This document shows positions 791 to 33,652 of a stretch of DNA of 37,538 nt, in pieces. The stretch is from Parcubacteria group bacterium GW2011_GWC1_36_108 (GTDB lineage Bacteria; Patescibacteriota; Minisyncoccia; Moranbacterales; GWC2-37-73): NCBI GenBank assembly GCA_000991245.1, contig LBRD01000007.1:1-37538 (forward strand). The letters are read 5' to 3'. The translations under genes and the position numbers were made by a program. Position 1 is the first letter of the stretch. The number at the start of each line of letters is the position of its first letter. The notes below the pieces were generated by a model, which searched no databases, had not been told where the DNA came from, and saw only the letters and a list, made by a program, of their open reading frames with translations.

Positions 791-1177
791 ATGATAAGAA
801 TTGCCGGAATAAATCTTCCTGATGAAAAAAGAATAGAAATTGCTTTGACATATGTCTTTGGAATTGGACCTTCAACTAGCCGTAAGCTTTTGAAGCTTCT
901 TGAAATTGATATGACCACTCGCACGAAAGATCTTTCAGCTGAAGATGCGAACAGACTTCGCGACGAAATTGAAAAAAAATATAAAGTTGAAGGAGAATTG
1001 AAGCACGAAGTGAAAATGAATATTAAGCGACTTAAAGAAATCGGAAGTTATCGCGGAAGTCGACATCAAAAAGGACTTCCAGTGAACGGTCAGCGAACAA
1101 AGACCAATAGTAGAACAGTTCGAGGAAATGTTCGAAGAACTATGGGAAGTGGACGAAGATCAGAATCAAAGACATAG
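791..1177 (+). CDS. rpsM: 30S ribosomal protein S13
   Basis: RIAGINLPDEKRIEIALTYVFGIG... with C-terminal RTKTNSRTVRG; operon context. Confidence 0.97.
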   Translation: MIRIAGINLPDEKRIEIALTYVFGIGPSTSRKLLKLLEIDMTTRTKDLSAEDANRLRDEIEKKYKVEGELKHEVKMNIKRLKEIGSYRGSRHQKGLPVNGQRTKTNSRTVRGNVRRTMGSGRRSESKT

Positions 1178-1181
1178 TAAA

Positions 1182-1290
1182 TAGCTTTTTAGGCATTAGC
1201 TTGTTAGCTTCTTAGCCTGAAGAGGAAATAAATTATAAACATTTTATAAAAAGCTTAAAAGCTGAGAAGCTAAGAAGCTAAAACCTGATT
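1182..1290. repeat. Intergenic 'AAGCTAA' palindromic repeat, copy 1 (rpsM-rpsK gap)
   Basis: agctttttaggcattagcttgttagcttcttagcctg...gctgagaagctaagaagctaaaacctgatt. Confidence 0.75.
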
Positions 1291-1293
1291 AAT

Positions 1294-1773
1294 ATGGCAG
1301 ATGAAATTAAAACAACTGAAGAAGTGATGGCTGAAGTTTCTTTGGAAACTGAGGTTGTTGGTGCTGCTGAGGCTGAGCAAGCTACAGAAGCTGAAACAAA
1401 GAAGAAGAAAAAGAAACTAAAAAGACAAATCTTAAAAGGTCAAGCTCATATTAAATGTACCTATAACAACACAATGGTGATGATTTCTGACGCCAATGGC
1501 GCAATGCTTGGATGGTCAAGTTCTGGATTATTGGGATTTAAGGGCGCAAAAAAAGCAACTCCATATGCAGCAACGCAAGTTGTGCATGATGTTTCAGAAA
1601 AAGTTAAGAAATATGGTATGCATGAATTGGATGTTTTCGTTAGAGGTGTTGGTAGCGGTCGTGAATCATCAATTCGATCATTAGCAAATAAAGGTTTTGA
1701 ACTTACTGCAATTAAAGATGTGACCCCAATTCCTCATAATGGATGCAGAGCGAAAAAACCAAGACGAGTATAA
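1294..1773 (+). CDS. rpsK: 30S ribosomal protein S11 with an N-terminal acidic/Lys-rich extension
   Basis: AHIKCTYNNTMVMISDANG...GVGSGRESSIRSLANKGFELTAIKDVTPIPHNGCRAKKPRRV; about 45 extra N-terminal residues. Confidence 0.96.
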   Translation: MADEIKTTEEVMAEVSLETEVVGAAEAEQATEAETKKKKKKLKRQILKGQAHIKCTYNNTMVMISDANGAMLGWSSSGLLGFKGAKKATPYAATQVVHDVSEKVKKYGMHELDVFVRGVGSGRESSIRSLANKGFELTAIKDVTPIPHNGCRAKKPRRV

Positions 1774-1780
1774 TTTTAAC

Positions 1781-1863
1781 AGCTTATTAGGCATTAGCTT
1801 CTCAGCTTCTCAGGAAATTATTTTTTCCTAAAAAGCTAAAAAGCTAAAAAGCTAAAACCTGAT
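1781..1863. repeat. Intergenic 'AAGCTAA' palindromic repeat, copy 2 (rpsK-rpsD gap)
   Basis: agcttattaggcattagcttctcagcttctcagg...cctaaaaagctaaaaagctaaaaagctaaaacctgatt. Confidence 0.75.
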
Positions 1864-1866
1864 TTT

Positions 1867-2502
1867 ATGGCACGAGATTTATTAGGATCAAAATGTAAGA
1901 GATGTCGCAGAGCTCAAGAAAAGCTTTTCTTGAAAGGTGACCGATGTAATAGTGCAAAATGCGCTATTTCGCGTCGTCCATATGCACCGGGTGTTCATGG
2001 TAAAAACATTTCTCGAGGATTGAGCGAATTTGGAAAGCAACTCGCGATGAAACAACGTATTAAGAGAATGTATGGAGTCTTGGAAAGACAGTTTCGTAAG
2101 CACTATGATGAAATTAGCAATAAGCCAGGTGTTACTGGAGACTTGCTGATGACACGACTTGAAATGCGATTGGATAATGTTGTTCGCAAAATGGGACTAG
2201 CATCTTCTCCAATTCAAGCCAGACAACTGGTAACTCACGGAGCATTTCTGGTTAACGGCAAAAAACTTACAATTCCTTCTTGTTGGGTTAAGGTTGGCGA
2301 CGTTATTTCAGTTAAAGAATCAAAGAAAGGAAACGCATATTTTGTAAATCAGATTCAGACTCTCGCTAATAAGAAAGATTTTCCGCGCTGGATTCAGTTT
2401 AATCAATCAAAGTTGGAAGGCACAGTTATTTCATTGCCAACCCGCGAAGATGTGGGAGTGCATGTTGATCCGCAAATGGTTGTTGAATCATATTCACGTT
2501 AA
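1867..2502 (+). CDS. rpsD: 30S ribosomal protein S4
   Basis: S4 pattern with C-x2-C region and S4 RNA-binding domain (RLDNVVRKMGLASSPIQARQLVTHGAFLVNGKKLTIPS). Confidence 0.97.
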   Translation: MARDLLGSKCKRCRRAQEKLFLKGDRCNSAKCAISRRPYAPGVHGKNISRGLSEFGKQLAMKQRIKRMYGVLERQFRKHYDEISNKPGVTGDLLMTRLEMRLDNVVRKMGLASSPIQARQLVTHGAFLVNGKKLTIPSCWVKVGDVISVKESKKGNAYFVNQIQTLANKKDFPRWIQFNQSKLEGTVISLPTREDVGVHVDPQMVVESYSR

Positions 2503-2597: not shown

Positions 2598-3563
2598 ATG
2601 CAAATAGTGTCGCTTCCTCAAAAGCCAAAATACACCCCAATTGATCAGAATAGTGGGAAATTCGAAATTATGGGATGTTATCCGGGTTATGGTATGACCC
2701 TTGGTAATGCGCTTAGGCGTGTTCTTTTAGCATCTCTAGAAGGTGCAGCAGTTACATCAGTAAAAATCAAAGGTGTTTCTCATGAATTTTCAACTCTCGA
2801 TGGAGTTATGGAAGATGCAGTGCAGATCATTTTGAATCTTAAGAAGATTCGTTTTAAAATGCACAGCGAAGAACCTGTAAAAGTTAGTCTTAAATTCAAA
2901 GGAGAAGGAAAGGTTACTGCAAAAGAAATTAAATGTCCTTCAAGTGTGGAAGTTGTTAATACTGATCAGATCATTGCTACTGTTACTGATAAGAAAGTTG
3001 AATTTGAGATGGAATTGGAAATTTCCCGTGGTTTGGGATATGTGCCGATTGATCAACAAAATAGACCAGAAAAGGAAATTGGTGTTATTGCGATTGACGC
3101 AGTTTACACACCGATTCGTCGAGTGAATTATGAAGTTGAAAATATGCGCGTTGGAAAAAGAACTGATTATAACAAAATTACGCTCGAAGTTGTTACTGAT
3201 GGAAGCATTACTCCTGAAGAAGCATTCAAAAAAGCTGTTGTTATCTTGGTAGAACAATTTTCAGTGCTTGGTGGTATTGAAGTGATTGAAGAAGCTAAGG
3301 AAGTTGAAGTAAAAGAGGCTGTGATTGTTGAAGAAAAAGCTGCTGTAGAAGAAGCTGTTGATCCTTTGAAGATCAAAGTCACTGAATTGAAAAATCTTTC
3401 AACAAGAACGCTTAATGTGCTTGAAGCAAGTAAAATTGCTAAAATCAAGGATATTGCAAAATTAAACGAAGAAGGATTGCTCGCATTGGAAGGTATGGGC
3501 GACAAGGGAGTAAAGGAAATTAAAAAAGCTATAGGAGAATTTGGAATAACATTAAAACAGTAA
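2598..3563 (+). CDS. rpoA: DNA-directed RNA polymerase subunit alpha
   Basis: GYGMTLGNALRRVLLASLEGAAVTSVKIKGVSHEFSTLDGVMED; C-terminal HhH alpha-CTD after a Glu/Ala/Val-rich linker. Confidence 0.97.
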   Translation: MQIVSLPQKPKYTPIDQNSGKFEIMGCYPGYGMTLGNALRRVLLASLEGAAVTSVKIKGVSHEFSTLDGVMEDAVQIILNLKKIRFKMHSEEPVKVSLKFKGEGKVTAKEIKCPSSVEVVNTDQIIATVTDKKVEFEMELEISRGLGYVPIDQQNRPEKEIGVIAIDAVYTPIRRVNYEVENMRVGKRTDYNKITLEVVTDGSITPEEAFKKAVVILVEQFSVLGGIEVIEEAKEVEVKEAVIVEEKAAVEEAVDPLKIKVTELKNLSTRTLNVLEASKIAKIKDIAKLNEEGLLALEGMGDKGVKEIKKAIGEFGITLKQ

Positions 3564-12345: not shown

Positions 12346-12360
12346 CCTGCTGATATGTTT

Positions 12361-12504
12361 TTGCAATGCGAGAATATATTCTTTTTGGCACGCTTTTGGA
12401 TGAATGTTTACCCCGTCAAATCCAGCAAGGCTGGTGTTCACTGCTGTGAACAATTTGACGGGGCGAGTATCCAAAAGCAAAAAGAAAATATTCTCGCATT
12501 GCAA
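12361..12504. repeat. Large palindromic element with nested hairpins, 'CCCCGTCAAAT' family copy 1
   Basis: 17-bp perfect outer inverted repeat ttgcaatgcgagaatat/atattctcgcattgcaa; inner cccgtcaaat/atttgacggg; nested ccagcaaggctgg and gttcactgctgtgaac hairpins. Confidence 0.85.
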
Positions 12505-12653
12505 AGCGTGATTAACAGTGTTTTTTTTGAAAATTCTCAAACCTTGACAGGCATCATTTTTTCAGATATCATATACGTGGTTTACTGTTAATATAGATGT
12601 AAAACTACGCCGCTTGAGCGGTATTTTTTAATCACTAAAACACAAGAATTGTT

Positions 12654-25824: not shown

Positions 25825-26053
25825 GAAAAACTTTAATAAAAACAAGTCTGTAATTTATTCGGGCTTGTTTTTTTTATTTTCACTAAAATGCTTTTTGAAT
25901 CCATATATCCATTTATGGATATGTAATCATACCTGTATTTATGTCTATAATTTCTTAAAAAAAACCACAAATCAGCGGTCGTATGTTACTTGGTTTTTTG
26001 ATGATTACATTTTTTTTATTCACAATTAAGTATTTTTAGTATACAATTAAGTT

Positions 26054-27007
26054 ATGTCAGAATGTCAACAACTCAAATCCGAATACGCACAACTTGAAAC
26101 CCTCAAACAAGAATTTGAGACGGCTTTTGATGACGCTGTAAAAAGTGGAAACACGGAGAAAGCAAAACAACTGAAAACTGAAATTCAAGAAAAATTGGCA
26201 AGCCTCAAAGAAAAGATTGTGCCTAGAGAAATTAAGGCAATTTTCATAAATCCCGAAACCAGCGAGCAAAAAGAAATCAAAATCAATATTCAAGAAAAAA
26301 TCCAAGAATTTCAAGAATTTTACAAAAAACATAATCTGCCAATTCCAAATGAGCAGGAAATAATGTCAGTTTGGAGGAAAAATCATAAGGAAATCAAAGA
26401 AGAAATTGAAAAATATGGTTATGATAATGTTTTGATAATCCCAGAAAATTTGCCAGATACTGAAAATCTTAATGGAATAATGACTGAAGGATATGGAAAT
26501 GCGACATATCAATCAAGCAATTTCACGGGTGGCGGAGGATTTTCTGGCGCTAAACACACTGAAAACACAAAAGCTAAAATCATTCTATGTCACAATGACC
26601 AGGATATTTATGACAATGTGAATGCTAATGCTTTCGAAAAAGCTACTTTGAATAAGAACATCCTGCAACTTTCTGGATTGACTCAATCTGAGCTTGAAAA
26701 GAAAATTCAAAATCAAGAAAACATCCCAATCAATTTTGAAATTCAAATCAATAATCAAAAAATTCAAATCGAAGCTGAAGGACTTTCTCTTAATGAATAC
26801 CTAATTTTCCAAAGGCAATATTTTGAGAAAAATCAAAAACATTTAGATGAAAAAGGGTATACATGGTTACTTAAAACATTCTCCGCTTCGCGCGTCGTGT
26901 TCTCCTTCTGGCATTCTGACGATGCTCGGCTTCGCGTGCATGCTACTGCTCTCGGTGCGTCGCGTGGCGATCTTGCGTGCCGCCTCTCCCGTAGTTTTTC
27001 AAATTAA
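26054..27007 (+). CDS. Putative DGR-diversified (variable) protein: coiled-coil N-terminus and short C-type-lectin-like C-terminal tail
   Basis: 317 aa; C-terminus YTWLLKTFSASRVVFSFWHSDDARLRVHATALGASRGDLACRLSRSFSN encoded by adenine-depleted, GC-rich DNA. Confidence 0.6.
   Translation: MSECQQLKSEYAQLETLKQEFETAFDDAVKSGNTEKAKQLKTEIQEKLASLKEKIVPREIKAIFINPETSEQKEIKINIQEKIQEFQEFYKKHNLPIPNEQEIMSVWRKNHKEIKEEIEKYGYDNVLIIPENLPDTENLNGIMTEGYGNATYQSSNFTGGGGFSGAKHTENTKAKIILCHNDQDIYDNVNANAFEKATLNKNILQLSGLTQSELEKKIQNQENIPINFEIQINNQKIQIEAEGLSLNEYLIFQRQYFEKNQKHLDEKGYTWLLKTFSASRVVFSFWHSDDARLRVHATALGASRGDLACRLSRSFSN
26879..26998 (+). other. Candidate DGR variable region (VR)
   Basis: 26881-26990 has 6 A in 110 nt (71 G+C), versus 46 A in the preceding 110 nt. 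Codons at presumptive variable sites nearly all end in C or T. Confidence 0.6.
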
Positions 27008-27066
27008 CTTAGGCTTTGAGTCTTTTTGATTTTATTTTGAATTTATTTTATTTTTTATAAACGATT

Positions 27067-28860
27067 ATGGAAAACTTAAATTGGGCACCTATTGAAAAAA
27101 AAGTGAATGAAGCCGAAAAGAAAAAGAGGCAGCAGCTTGGAGCTTCTCGTGTTTTGTATGGCGAAACAAAAATGCCAAAACAGGAAAGAAATGAAAAAAC
27201 TGACTCAGAAATTTTGGAAAGCTCGCAAAGAAAACGGGTCGCGCAAAAAGCTATTGAGCGAGAAACTGCTTTTAATGATGAAGCAGAGGGAATTTTGGGT
27301 GCGGATGAGTCATCAGAAAGAACACTGGTCAATTTCCGAAAAGAAAATCTTGCAAAGGCACTTCGTTATGAAAAAGCGCTTGAAATTCAACGTCAGCAAC
27401 TCTTGAATGAGGAATCTCAGATTTTGAAATCATTCAATGGTGCTCCACACGGGGAAGAGTTAGAGGCCTTGGATGAAATTCGAGAGGAATTAAGAAAAAA
27501 TAATGAGCTTGGGGAGAAATCACTAGAACTTAATCCCGAAGCATATTTTGGATTGAACTTGAAAAAACTTAAGGAATACAAAAATGAACTTAGTGAGGGA
27601 AGAATCGTTGAAACCCAATATGTTAAAGAAAAAATGGAAGATATTTGCTTGCATCTTGCTGCAAATAAACCAATTTTAATTTATGGACATTTGGGAAGCG
27701 GAAAATCTGAATTGGCTATGCATACGTCCAAAAAATACTCAAGCAAAGATCCACTTATTATTTCTGGTTCAAAAAATATTTCTCAATCAGAGTTTTATGG
27801 ACATCAAGTTTTAACTGTGGATGAAGAGTCTGGCTCAACAGTCTCTGATTTTTATATGGGACCAATATATCAAGCCATGGAAGACGGTAGACCTGTTATT
27901 ATTGATGAAGTGAATGCTATCCCGCACGAAGTTTTAATTAGTTTGAATCATATTTTGACCAGAAAAGTTGGAGACAAAATTAATATTCAGCAAGACAGTG
28001 GACGGGAGGTTGAAATTAAAGAGGGCTTTGGAATCATTATGACTGGAAATCTTAATCAAGGGCAAGAAAAGTATGTTGATCGTCAAGATATGGATCCCGC
28101 ATTTCTTTCGCGTATTCATAAAATAGAATACGATTACCTTCCACAAGACACTGAGGGTAGTTTGGAAAGTGAAGCTGGAAAGGAAAATGAACAGTTTCAT
28201 CTTGTGCTTGCTAGCATTATGGATGGACATGGAAATATTGAAGCACCCGAAGACAGTGTTAAAAAGCTGTGGAATCTGGCAAAAGCCGCGCGCGTCGTTC
28301 AGAATGTGTTTGCAGGAAAAGAAATTGAAAGCGCTTATTATCTCAAAGAAGCTGGAGGTCGCGCCACAAAATATCTGCTTAAAGAAAGCGTGCTTTCGCT
28401 TCGTGGAATTGAGAATATTGTTTCGCAGTGGAAAGCCGAAGGATATGATAAAGAACTTGATTATTATGTTTGGAATAATTTCATCAAAGAAGGAACAGTC
28501 GCTTCTGACAGAGCGTATTTGTATCAGTTGATGAAAGATCAGTTTAATTTTTTCAAAAGTGATGGTTGGGAACAAAGTCCAAATTATGGAAGCGGTGGAG
28601 TTGTGAATTCCTTTGATATTTCGGCGCCTAAAAATGTTTCTGCTAAGCGAAAATTTTTTGGACCACGCGAAGTTGTTGAATTTGCATTTGGAAAAGCGCC
28701 AGAGAGAGCCCAGTGGCCGGAAGCTTCAATTGAAGGAGCAGAGCAAGAGAATATTATTAATCCAGAAATCATGGAAATGGAAGAGTTTAAAGATGAATTA
28801 CAAAAAGAAATGGAAGAAATTTGGAATGAAATTGGAGAAGTTTGCGAGATGGAGAAATAA
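27067..28860 (+). CDS. AAA+ ATPase (MoxR/AAA_5-like) with a long coiled-coil N-terminus
   Basis: Walker A GHLGSGKSE, Walker B PVIIDEVNAIPHEVL, sensor-like IIMTGNLNQG, DPAFLSRIHKIEYDYLP. Confidence 0.85.
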   Translation: MENLNWAPIEKKVNEAEKKKRQQLGASRVLYGETKMPKQERNEKTDSEILESSQRKRVAQKAIERETAFNDEAEGILGADESSERTLVNFRKENLAKALRYEKALEIQRQQLLNEESQILKSFNGAPHGEELEALDEIREELRKNNELGEKSLELNPEAYFGLNLKKLKEYKNELSEGRIVETQYVKEKMEDICLHLAANKPILIYGHLGSGKSELAMHTSKKYSSKDPLIISGSKNISQSEFYGHQVLTVDEESGSTVSDFYMGPIYQAMEDGRPVIIDEVNAIPHEVLISLNHILTRKVGDKINIQQDSGREVEIKEGFGIIMTGNLNQGQEKYVDRQDMDPAFLSRIHKIEYDYLPQDTEGSLESEAGKENEQFHLVLASIMDGHGNIEAPEDSVKKLWNLAKAARVVQNVFAGKEIESAYYLKEAGGRATKYLLKESVLSLRGIENIVSQWKAEGYDKELDYYVWNNFIKEGTVASDRAYLYQLMKDQFNFFKSDGWEQSPNYGSGGVVNSFDISAPKNVSAKRKFFGPREVVEFAFGKAPERAQWPEASIEGAEQENIINPEIMEMEEFKDELQKEMEEIWNEIGEVCEMEK

Positions 28861-28893: not shown

Positions 28894-29925
28894 ATGGAAA
28901 AACTCAATTCGCAAATTGTTATATACAAAGCTAAAGATGGGCAGACTAAACTTGATGTTCGTTTTGATGGTGAAACCGTTTGGCTTTCGCAAAGGCAAAT
29001 GGCTGAGCTTTTTGATTGTAGTATCGACAATGTTAGTTTGCATCTAAAAAATATCTTCAAAGAGGCTGAATTAAGCGAAAAATCAGTTGTCGAGGAATTC
29101 TCGTTAACTGCGACGGATGGAAAAAATTATAGCGTGAAGCATTATAATCTGGATGCAATAATTTCGGTTGCCTATAGGGTGAATTCCATGCGTGGAACGC
29201 AATTTCGAATTTGGGCAACTCAGAAATTGCGGGAATATATTGTTAAAGGTTTTGTTTTGGATGATGAACGATTGAAAAATCCCGATTTGCCGTTTGATTA
29301 TTTTGAGGAACTTGAAAGTACAATTGCGGATATTCGCACTAGTGAAAAAAGATTTTATCGTAAAATTACTGATATTTATGCAACAAGTGTGGATTATGAT
29401 CCAACAAATGACCAAAGCATTGTTTTTTTCAAAACAGTGCAAAACAAAGTTCACTATGCAGTTACAGGCAGCACGGCAGCAGAAATTGTAGCCAGCAGGA
29501 TAGATGTGAGTAAGAAGAATTTAGGACTTACTAATTTCAGAGGAATAAAGCCAAAAAAAGAAGAAGTTGTTATTGCAAAAAATTATTATAATAAAGAGGA
29601 ATTGACTCAGTTGAATGCGCTTGTTGAACAATATTTGATATTTGCCACAGAACAGGCTCGTCGCAGAATTCCTATGAAAATGAGTGATTGGAATGAAAAA
29701 CTTCATGGTTTTTTGACAATTAATGATAGAAATATTCTGCAAGACGCGGGTAAAATTTCTCATGAATTAATGGTGGAGATTGCAGAAAAGAAATTTGATG
29801 AATACAAGAGTATTGAAGCAAGGCAAGATGTGGATTTTGATGAGATTGCACTCAGTGCAATTGAAAGTGTAAAAAATAGTGGTAGAGTAAAAATAATAAA
29901 CATTAAAAAAGTAAAATTAAAATAA
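28894..29925 (+). CDS. RhuM-family protein
   Basis: VRFDGETVWLSQRQMAELFDCSIDNVSLHLKNIFKEAEL...TDGKNYSVKHYNLDAIISVAYRVNSMRGTQFRIWATQKLREYIVKGFVLDDERLKNP. Confidence 0.9.
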   Translation: MEKLNSQIVIYKAKDGQTKLDVRFDGETVWLSQRQMAELFDCSIDNVSLHLKNIFKEAELSEKSVVEEFSLTATDGKNYSVKHYNLDAIISVAYRVNSMRGTQFRIWATQKLREYIVKGFVLDDERLKNPDLPFDYFEELESTIADIRTSEKRFYRKITDIYATSVDYDPTNDQSIVFFKTVQNKVHYAVTGSTAAEIVASRIDVSKKNLGLTNFRGIKPKKEEVVIAKNYYNKEELTQLNALVEQYLIFATEQARRRIPMKMSDWNEKLHGFLTINDRNILQDAGKISHELMVEIAEKKFDEYKSIEARQDVDFDEIALSAIESVKNSGRVKIINIKKVKLK

Positions 29926-33453: not shown

Positions 33454-33652
33454 TTACGCTTTTTCTCAACTATTTCTTATTTGGCACGCTTTTGGATAAA
33501 TATTTACCCCGTCAAATCCAGCAAAGCTGGTGTTCACTGCTGTGAACAATTTGACGGGGCGAGTATCCAAAAGCTCAAAGAGTCGCTGTCGCCAACCTGC
33601 CTACCGGCAGGCAGGCAATTGGCCAAAAAAGAAATGTTTCGAAATGCGTAAC
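33454..33652. repeat. Large palindromic element, 'CCCCGTCAAAT' family copy 2, with an insertion in the 3' arm
   Basis: 92-bp core 33483-33574 matches 12387-12478 with 3 mismatches; outer arms ttacgc...atttctt / aagaaatg...gcgtaa. Confidence 0.85.

Follow-up and report, generated by a model that had tools for sequence, protein, structure and literature searches.

The question raised by this locus is how a gene came to end in some 40 codons that are strikingly poor in adenine, and what the protein that carries this tail may do. A first-pass annotation, made from the sequence alone, had taken the gene for the target of a diversity-generating retroelement (DGR), in which a variable region (VR) is rewritten from a template repeat (TR) with changes at the template adenines. 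The window considered here is the stretch of 37,538 nucleotides formed by bases 1-37538 of contig C7 (110 kb), which belongs to a genome (G000) of 1.05 Mb in 10 contigs that is 99% complete. Templates were sought in 143 relatives of this genome. The positions of the features are collected in Table 1.

Table 1. Features of the target locus in the window and of the related DGR loci (positions are those of the sequence named in the second column).
Feature	Sequence	Position	Strand	Remarks
Intergenic 5′ flank, thioredoxin gene to target	window	25825-26053		229 bases; 93% identity with the G002 target 1 flank
DGR target gene	window	26054-27007	+	intact ORF, 317 aa, coordinates include the stop codon
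N-terminal helical pair, residues 3-55	window	26060-26218	+	model helices 3-31 and 35-55
VR, 115 bp	window	26883-26997	+	homologous to the TR at L020 2635-2749 (-)
3′ invariant block, IMH-like	window	26970-26997	+	3′ of the last mutated adenine; identical to the G002 TR
Short spacer, target to ATPase	window	27008-27066		TR, Avd, RT and vWA genes absent here, compared with L026 and L020
MoxR/CobS-type AAA+ ATPase, 597 aa	window	27067-28860	+	PF07728 (AAA_5), E=1.3e-13; phrog_249, E=8e-23
RT of the second, complete DGR	G000 contig C4 (L019)	799-1854	-	
Avd of the second DGR	G000 contig C4 (L019)	1901-2263	+	
TR of the second DGR	G000 contig C4 (L019)	2270-2391	-	
Target of the second DGR	G000 contig C4 (L019)	2773-3339	-	188 aa
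Avd in a DGR locus	L020	2258-2629		
Avd in a DGR locus	L021	762-1133		
Avd in a DGR locus	L026	8463-8816		
Avd in a DGR locus	L027	2810-3163		
Avd in a DGR locus	L105	2491-2865		

Origin of the Adenine-Poor Tail

The composition of the gene flips near position 26879, as the first-pass annotation had reported. Its base counts are exact (46 A in 26771-26880; 6 A and 71 G+C in 26881-26990), and the ORF and the tail are as it quoted them. Among all 37,428 segments of 110 bp in the window, only five hold six adenines or fewer; they overlap one another, with starts at 26879-26883, and the G+C maximum of the window lies at the same spot.

The VR, which occupies the C-terminal end of the intact ORF, is matched twice, about 390 bases apart, on a contig of 8791 bases in the same-genus genome G002 (Moranbacteria GW2011_GWE2_36_40). 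Within G002, TR and VR differ at 15 of the 25 template adenines and agree at all 92 other bases. When the window VR is compared with the same TR, differences are found at 18 of the 25 adenines and at 3 of the 92 other bases (117-column alignment, p=8e-13). All 24 template adenines of the 115-bp block are placed at codon positions 1 and 2, and the window carries nearly even bases there (7 A, 7 C, 6 G, and 4 T), which approaches full randomisation. The three changes at other bases all fall on third codon positions, as would be expected if the template of this lineage had drifted in the ordinary way. The same pattern recurs in G118, where one TR differs from two VRs at 15/25 and 17/25 adenines and at 0/96 other bases, and in G011, where one TR differs from three VRs at 14-18 of 27 adenines and at 0-2 of 94 other bases.

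The sharp composition change at 26880 might also be read as a compositional island, an insertion, or a chance open frame that owes nothing to a DGR. The mismatches to the TR of the ortholog, which lies beside a reverse transcriptase (RT) and Avd, are adenine-restricted, the pattern recurs in G118 and G011, each with more than one VR, and tail and reading frame are kept across all aligned relatives; this account is left with practically no probability, and the TR-VR pattern refutes it. The adenine-restricted differences to the G002 TR, together with the repeats of G118 and G011, show at the level of sequence that the tail is a DGR-made VR, with the orthologous G002 template taking the place of the one that is missing. 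The assignment of the gene as a DGR target is thus supported, and in this case an A-poor C-terminal tail alone sufficed to recognise a VR without its TR.

The finer claims of the annotation were mostly borne out. The TR differing only at adenines that it called for exists at the orthologous G002 locus and, independently, in G118 and G011, but is missing from the assembly of the window genome. The presumptive variable codons that it listed are nearly all correct, as judged from non-synonymous changes relative to the G002 template; the codons so changed start at 26900, 26906, 26912, 26927, 26933, 26939, 26945, 26948, 26954, 26957, 26963, 26966, and 26969. The extent proposed for the VR, 26879-26998, is narrowed to the homologous block. 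The invariant block at the 3′ end of the VR would be the initiation site, and its core is common to genomes of family f7, with matches of 27-46 bases (query 91-136) in G103, G118, and G131.

Between the window and G002, dN/dS is about 2 in the VR versus 0.11 in the constant part of the target; in the neighbouring ATPase it is 0.07 relative to G011, with dS near saturation. The ATPase and the constant part of the target therefore read as being under constraint. The dS between window and G002 amounts to 0.08 in the VR part (26879-27004 compared with L020 3025-3150) and to about 1 in the rest of the target gene and its neighbours. Since the VR value is about ten-fold below that of the rest of the gene, the non-adenine VR/TR positions appear unusually conserved, owing either to constraint on the template or to recent conversion or transfer. 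The upstream intergenic flank is also better conserved towards G002 than the adjacent coding DNA (80-84%).

DGR Machinery in Relatives and in the Window Genome

Complete TR, Avd, and RT lie beside the target at the orthologous loci of G002, G118, and G011. In G002 the order is thioredoxin and DsbD-like genes, target ortholog, TR, Avd, RT, and a large protein, cut short where the contig stops, with homology to the G118 vWA protein; the thioredoxin and DsbD-like genes are those that precede the window target. The G002 RT matches RVT_1, and its closest solved relative is 8ub7, which we take for the DGR complex of a Bordetella phage. The motifs LGNxTSQ and YxDD are present in the RTs of G118, G011, and contig C4, and also in the G002 translation. 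The Avd of the relatives matches bAvd, DivGenRetAVD (79.0 bits, cut-off 80), and “Avd protein of DGR”. Avd in each of the six DGR loci is squeezed between TR and RT and runs antisense to the RT, so that a transcript from the TR into the RT would carry Avd in antisense.

The window genome contains exactly one RVT_1 match, on contig C4, where it is part of a second, complete DGR whose TR and VR differ at 18/32 adenines and at 1/90 non-A bases. This DGR was considered as the cognate system of the window VR and rejected, as the C4 TR is unrelated to that VR. No cognate TR for the window VR was found in the genome assembly, the only match with a useful E value being the VR itself, and no cognate RT and Avd were found there either, the sole RT belonging to the C4 DGR. 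The absence of a TR or of a DGR-type RT from a complete genome is what the first-pass annotation had named as evidence against a DGR; locally, the TR and an RT of its own are indeed missing, and either loss of the cassette or a gap in the assembly accounts for this. It might also be supposed that the C4 RT diversifies the window VR in trans, given that trans activity is described in other genomes (PMC10907252) and that the C4 RT and Avd are intact. Such action would require a TR homologous to the VR, which the assembly lacks, the C4 TR being unrelated, and it is considered very improbable.

Locus Architecture and Probable Loss of the Cassette

The full arrangement is seen on a single contig of G118, which carries target 1, TR, antisense Avd, RT, a vWA/HExxH protein, target 2, and a MoxR-type ATPase. 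The contigs of G011, G015, and G002 stop inside or beside target copies, as expected of near-identical repeats. On its 5′ side the window locus has the flank of target copy 1, and on its 3′ side it has the ATPase found after target 2 in G118 and after a target copy in G011 and G015; the ATPase after the G011 target is 76% identical to that of the window. In G103 the end of a VR is found at the contig start, followed by the ATPase. Recombination between the copies would be expected to yield just this, one target that joins the left side of copy 1 to the right side of copy 2. The vWA protein, a second RT, and a matching TR were not found in the window genome, a 99% complete draft. The cassette of TR, Avd, RT, and vWA genes was therefore probably deleted by recombination between the target copies, and the window VR is probably frozen.

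Alternatively, the cassette could still be present, with the second target and the TR-Avd-RT-vWA genes collapsed or unbinned in the assembly and the VR actively diversifying. The contigs of G002, G011, and G015 that end at target copies indicate that such loci are hard to assemble, and a draft in 10 contigs leaves gaps. Conversely, the window contig is continuous from the thioredoxin gene across the target and the ATPase and onwards, over 110 kb, and no fragment of a TR, RT, or vWA gene of this type occurs anywhere in the 99% complete genome, which makes a hidden cassette somewhat unlikely. If the deletion took place, the window offers a naturally “frozen” orphan VR that can be set against relatives whose cassettes are complete, and would be of use in telling mutagenesis apart from the function of the variable protein.

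Two further observations concern the surroundings of the target copies. A RhuM-family gene (28894-29925; Pfam RhuM, E=2e-101; PADLOC candidate PDC-S05) sits in the window between the ATPase and a thioredoxin-reductase-like gene, which in G011 is directly preceded by the ATPase. Contig C59 of G011 (L022, 463-1671) bears a further target copy, then another type of ATPase, and then the next target copy; G011 has, therefore, at least three targets.

The Target Protein and Its Distribution

The AlphaFold2 model of the target (pLDDT 90.2, pTM 0.83; pTM 0.90 for the C-terminal 262 residues) consists of two N-terminal helices, an α/β middle part, and C-terminal strands that hold the variable positions. 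Foldseek gave no significant match for the full-length model against the PDB and viral models, nor for the C-terminal 262 residues against the PDB; a C-type lectin appears among the matches only at a non-significant E=1.5. The C-type-lectin character suggested earlier for the tail is not confirmed, since the model is confident but its fold has no significant structural match. A sequence search of the PDB gave no match for the target, which is also without a family in PHROGs and Pfam, and PADLOC has no model for the target or the vWA protein and returns only a weak mad8 match for the ATPase. In fused homologs an AAA ATPase module takes the place of the N-terminal helical pair, and the fusion in L027 can be aligned only from about residue 57.

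Target orthologs were found in G002 and in 12 further relatives or loci. The distribution of the family is patchy (13/143 relatives; 9/387 genomes in the class sample; 5/384 in the phylum sample), and apart from the window genome itself the phylum sample gives only weak, partial matches. No relatives of the target were found in viral contigs, and phage records give merely matches of 22-28 bases; with no target relative in the viral contigs, nothing points to a phage tail protein. An Rfam match to STnc630 (22 bits; gathering score 55) was set aside as chance. G114 (L004, L067) carries tandem target-like genes with several types of C-terminal tail, some of them very unlike the window VR.

MoxR-Type ATPase and vWA Proteins as Candidate Partners

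A separate MoxR-type ATPase lies beside the target in the window, G011, G015, G118, and G103, and ATPase and target are fused into one protein in G131, G309, and G097, which represent three divergent lineages. With 7-12 AAA_5 matches per genome, chance adjacency to the target is roughly estimated at about 2% per locus, assuming about 1000 genes and two neighbours; the evidence from fusions is independent of this estimate. The vWA genes found next to the target or in the same cluster in G118, G011, and G002 are mutually homologous. Types differing from that of G118 are found in G097, G124, and L086. The G097 vWA protein near the target has Pfam VWA and CobT_C matches; those directly upstream of targets in G124 and in a Komeilibacteria genome are 71% identical to each other and show a MIDAS-like DLSGSM motif without a Pfam vWA match. 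A possible vWA gene near the G309 target was read by eye in a partly masked stretch. The vWA proteins of the G118, G097, and G124 types have no detectable relatedness over their length, which may reflect separate recruitment. Beyond the genes named above, nothing conserved was noticed in the G118 operon.

The window ATPase is CobS-like (phrog_249) and the G097 vWA protein is CobT-like, i.e., judged by these matches, a MoxR-vWA type of pair. The recurrence of the target beside or fused to MoxR-type AAA proteins and vWA proteins in several Patescibacteria lineages suggests a DGR-diversified sensor in a MoxR-vWA machine. The diversified target could instead work on the cell surface and serve to attach the cell to a host, as host interaction has been suggested as a possible role of CPR DGRs in a review (PMC10907252) and as some distant homologs lack such neighbours (within the stretches read, no AAA or vWA gene adjoins those of G033, G023, and G472). 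The fusions of target and AAA in three divergent lineages, the adjacent vWA genes in others, and the lack of any secretion signal or membrane segment evident by eye in sequence or model argue against a surface role, which is deemed unlikely. Operon structure and repeated fusion thus give a CPR DGR target concrete candidate partners, a MoxR-type ATPase and a vWA protein.

Proposed Mechanism and Relation to Known Systems

Taken jointly, the best explanation, which we hold to be fairly probable, is that the target was rewritten by a DGR, that the cassette between two ancestral target copies was deleted, and that the protein is an intracellular ligand sensor working with an AAA ring and a vWA protein. 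RT and Avd would copy a G002-like TR with random bases at adenines, and the cDNA would replace the VR, i.e., the last 40 or so codons. In the ancestor, two target copies would have flanked the TR-Avd-RT-vWA/HExxH cassette, followed by the MoxR-type AAA ATPase. From one TR the DGR would diversify at least two targets. An exchange between the two copies by recombination would have removed the cassette and left a single target, with its VR frozen, beside the ATPase. The variable C-terminal sheet would bind a changing ligand, the N-terminal part would couple binding to the AAA ring, and the ring would act on or with the vWA protein; the ligand, the direction of the signal, and its output are, like the deletion and the sensor role, part of this proposed scheme.

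CPR genomes are rich in DGRs, whose targets are mostly without known domains and of a function left open (PMC8144416). The loci described here share TR, VR, Avd, and RT with CPR DGRs (RT clade 2 of Roux et al. 2021, PMC8144416, citing Paul et al. 2017), as well as adenine-specific mutagenesis, a C-terminal VR, and a cellular rather than viral setting; the likeness is judged from these features. Unlike those DGRs, the window genome has no cognate TR or RT, and the single TR of its relatives serves at least two targets that bracket the RT and a vWA gene.

DGR-diversified domains have been described in MoxR-vWA ternary systems of cyanobacteria and gammaproteobacteria (Kaur et al. 2020, PMC7159879), and such systems have been proposed as antigen sensors (Dore et al. 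2024, PMC10907252). CLec-AAA fusions are cited in the latter review as the most frequent kind of CPR target, and it reports no conflict-system domains with CPR/DPANN RTs of clade 5F (PMC10907252). The operons of G118 and G011, which unite a MoxR-type ATPase and a vWA protein with a C-terminal domain diversified by a DGR, resemble the MoxR-vWA(-VMAP) ternary conflict systems, proposed immune systems of bacteria (PMC7159879, PMC10907252). In those with DGR-diversified FGS/CLec domains the VR is fused to the vWA protein, whereas here it lies on a protein of its own or is fused to the ATPase; they are described in cyanobacteria, gammaproteobacteria, and other multicellular bacteria, and the present loci in Patescibacteria. 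Measured against the MoxR-vWA-VMAP systems, the window has the MoxR-type AAA ATPase and its genome no vWA protein. There is also a likeness to the CobS-CobT or MoxR-vWA chaperone pairs, through the CobS-like window ATPase and the CobT_C match of the G097 vWA protein, from which the present loci differ by the linked DGR target and by having no chelatase subunit in the loci read.

The linkage of target, ATPase, and vWA protein ties CPR DGRs to the MoxR-vWA systems proposed elsewhere as antigen sensors. Our broader proposal, put forward tentatively and with slightly more doubt than trust, is that Patescibacteria run DGR-diversified MoxR-vWA sensors, built from separate genes or as AAA-target fusions, in which one TR serves at least two targets bracketing RT and vWA genes, and that such loci, like that of the window, collapse through recombination of their target copies to frozen remnants with a single target. 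If true, antigen-sensor-like MoxR-vWA systems would extend from multicellular bacteria to ultra-small symbionts. A full-text literature search, with the primary 2017 CPR paper outside its scope, returned no description of a MoxR-vWA operon combined with a CPR DGR, and priority for this link is not established.

Repeats Elsewhere in the Window

A 111-nt repeat is present at 12360-12505 and 33471-33581, with copies 92% identical, and the first copy is flanked by near-perfect inverted repeats of 28 nt in a MITE-like manner. Two pairs of intergenic repeats, 5859-5977/14835-14958 and 21465-21498/21744-21777, contain inverted-repeat parts and are 89-100% identical.
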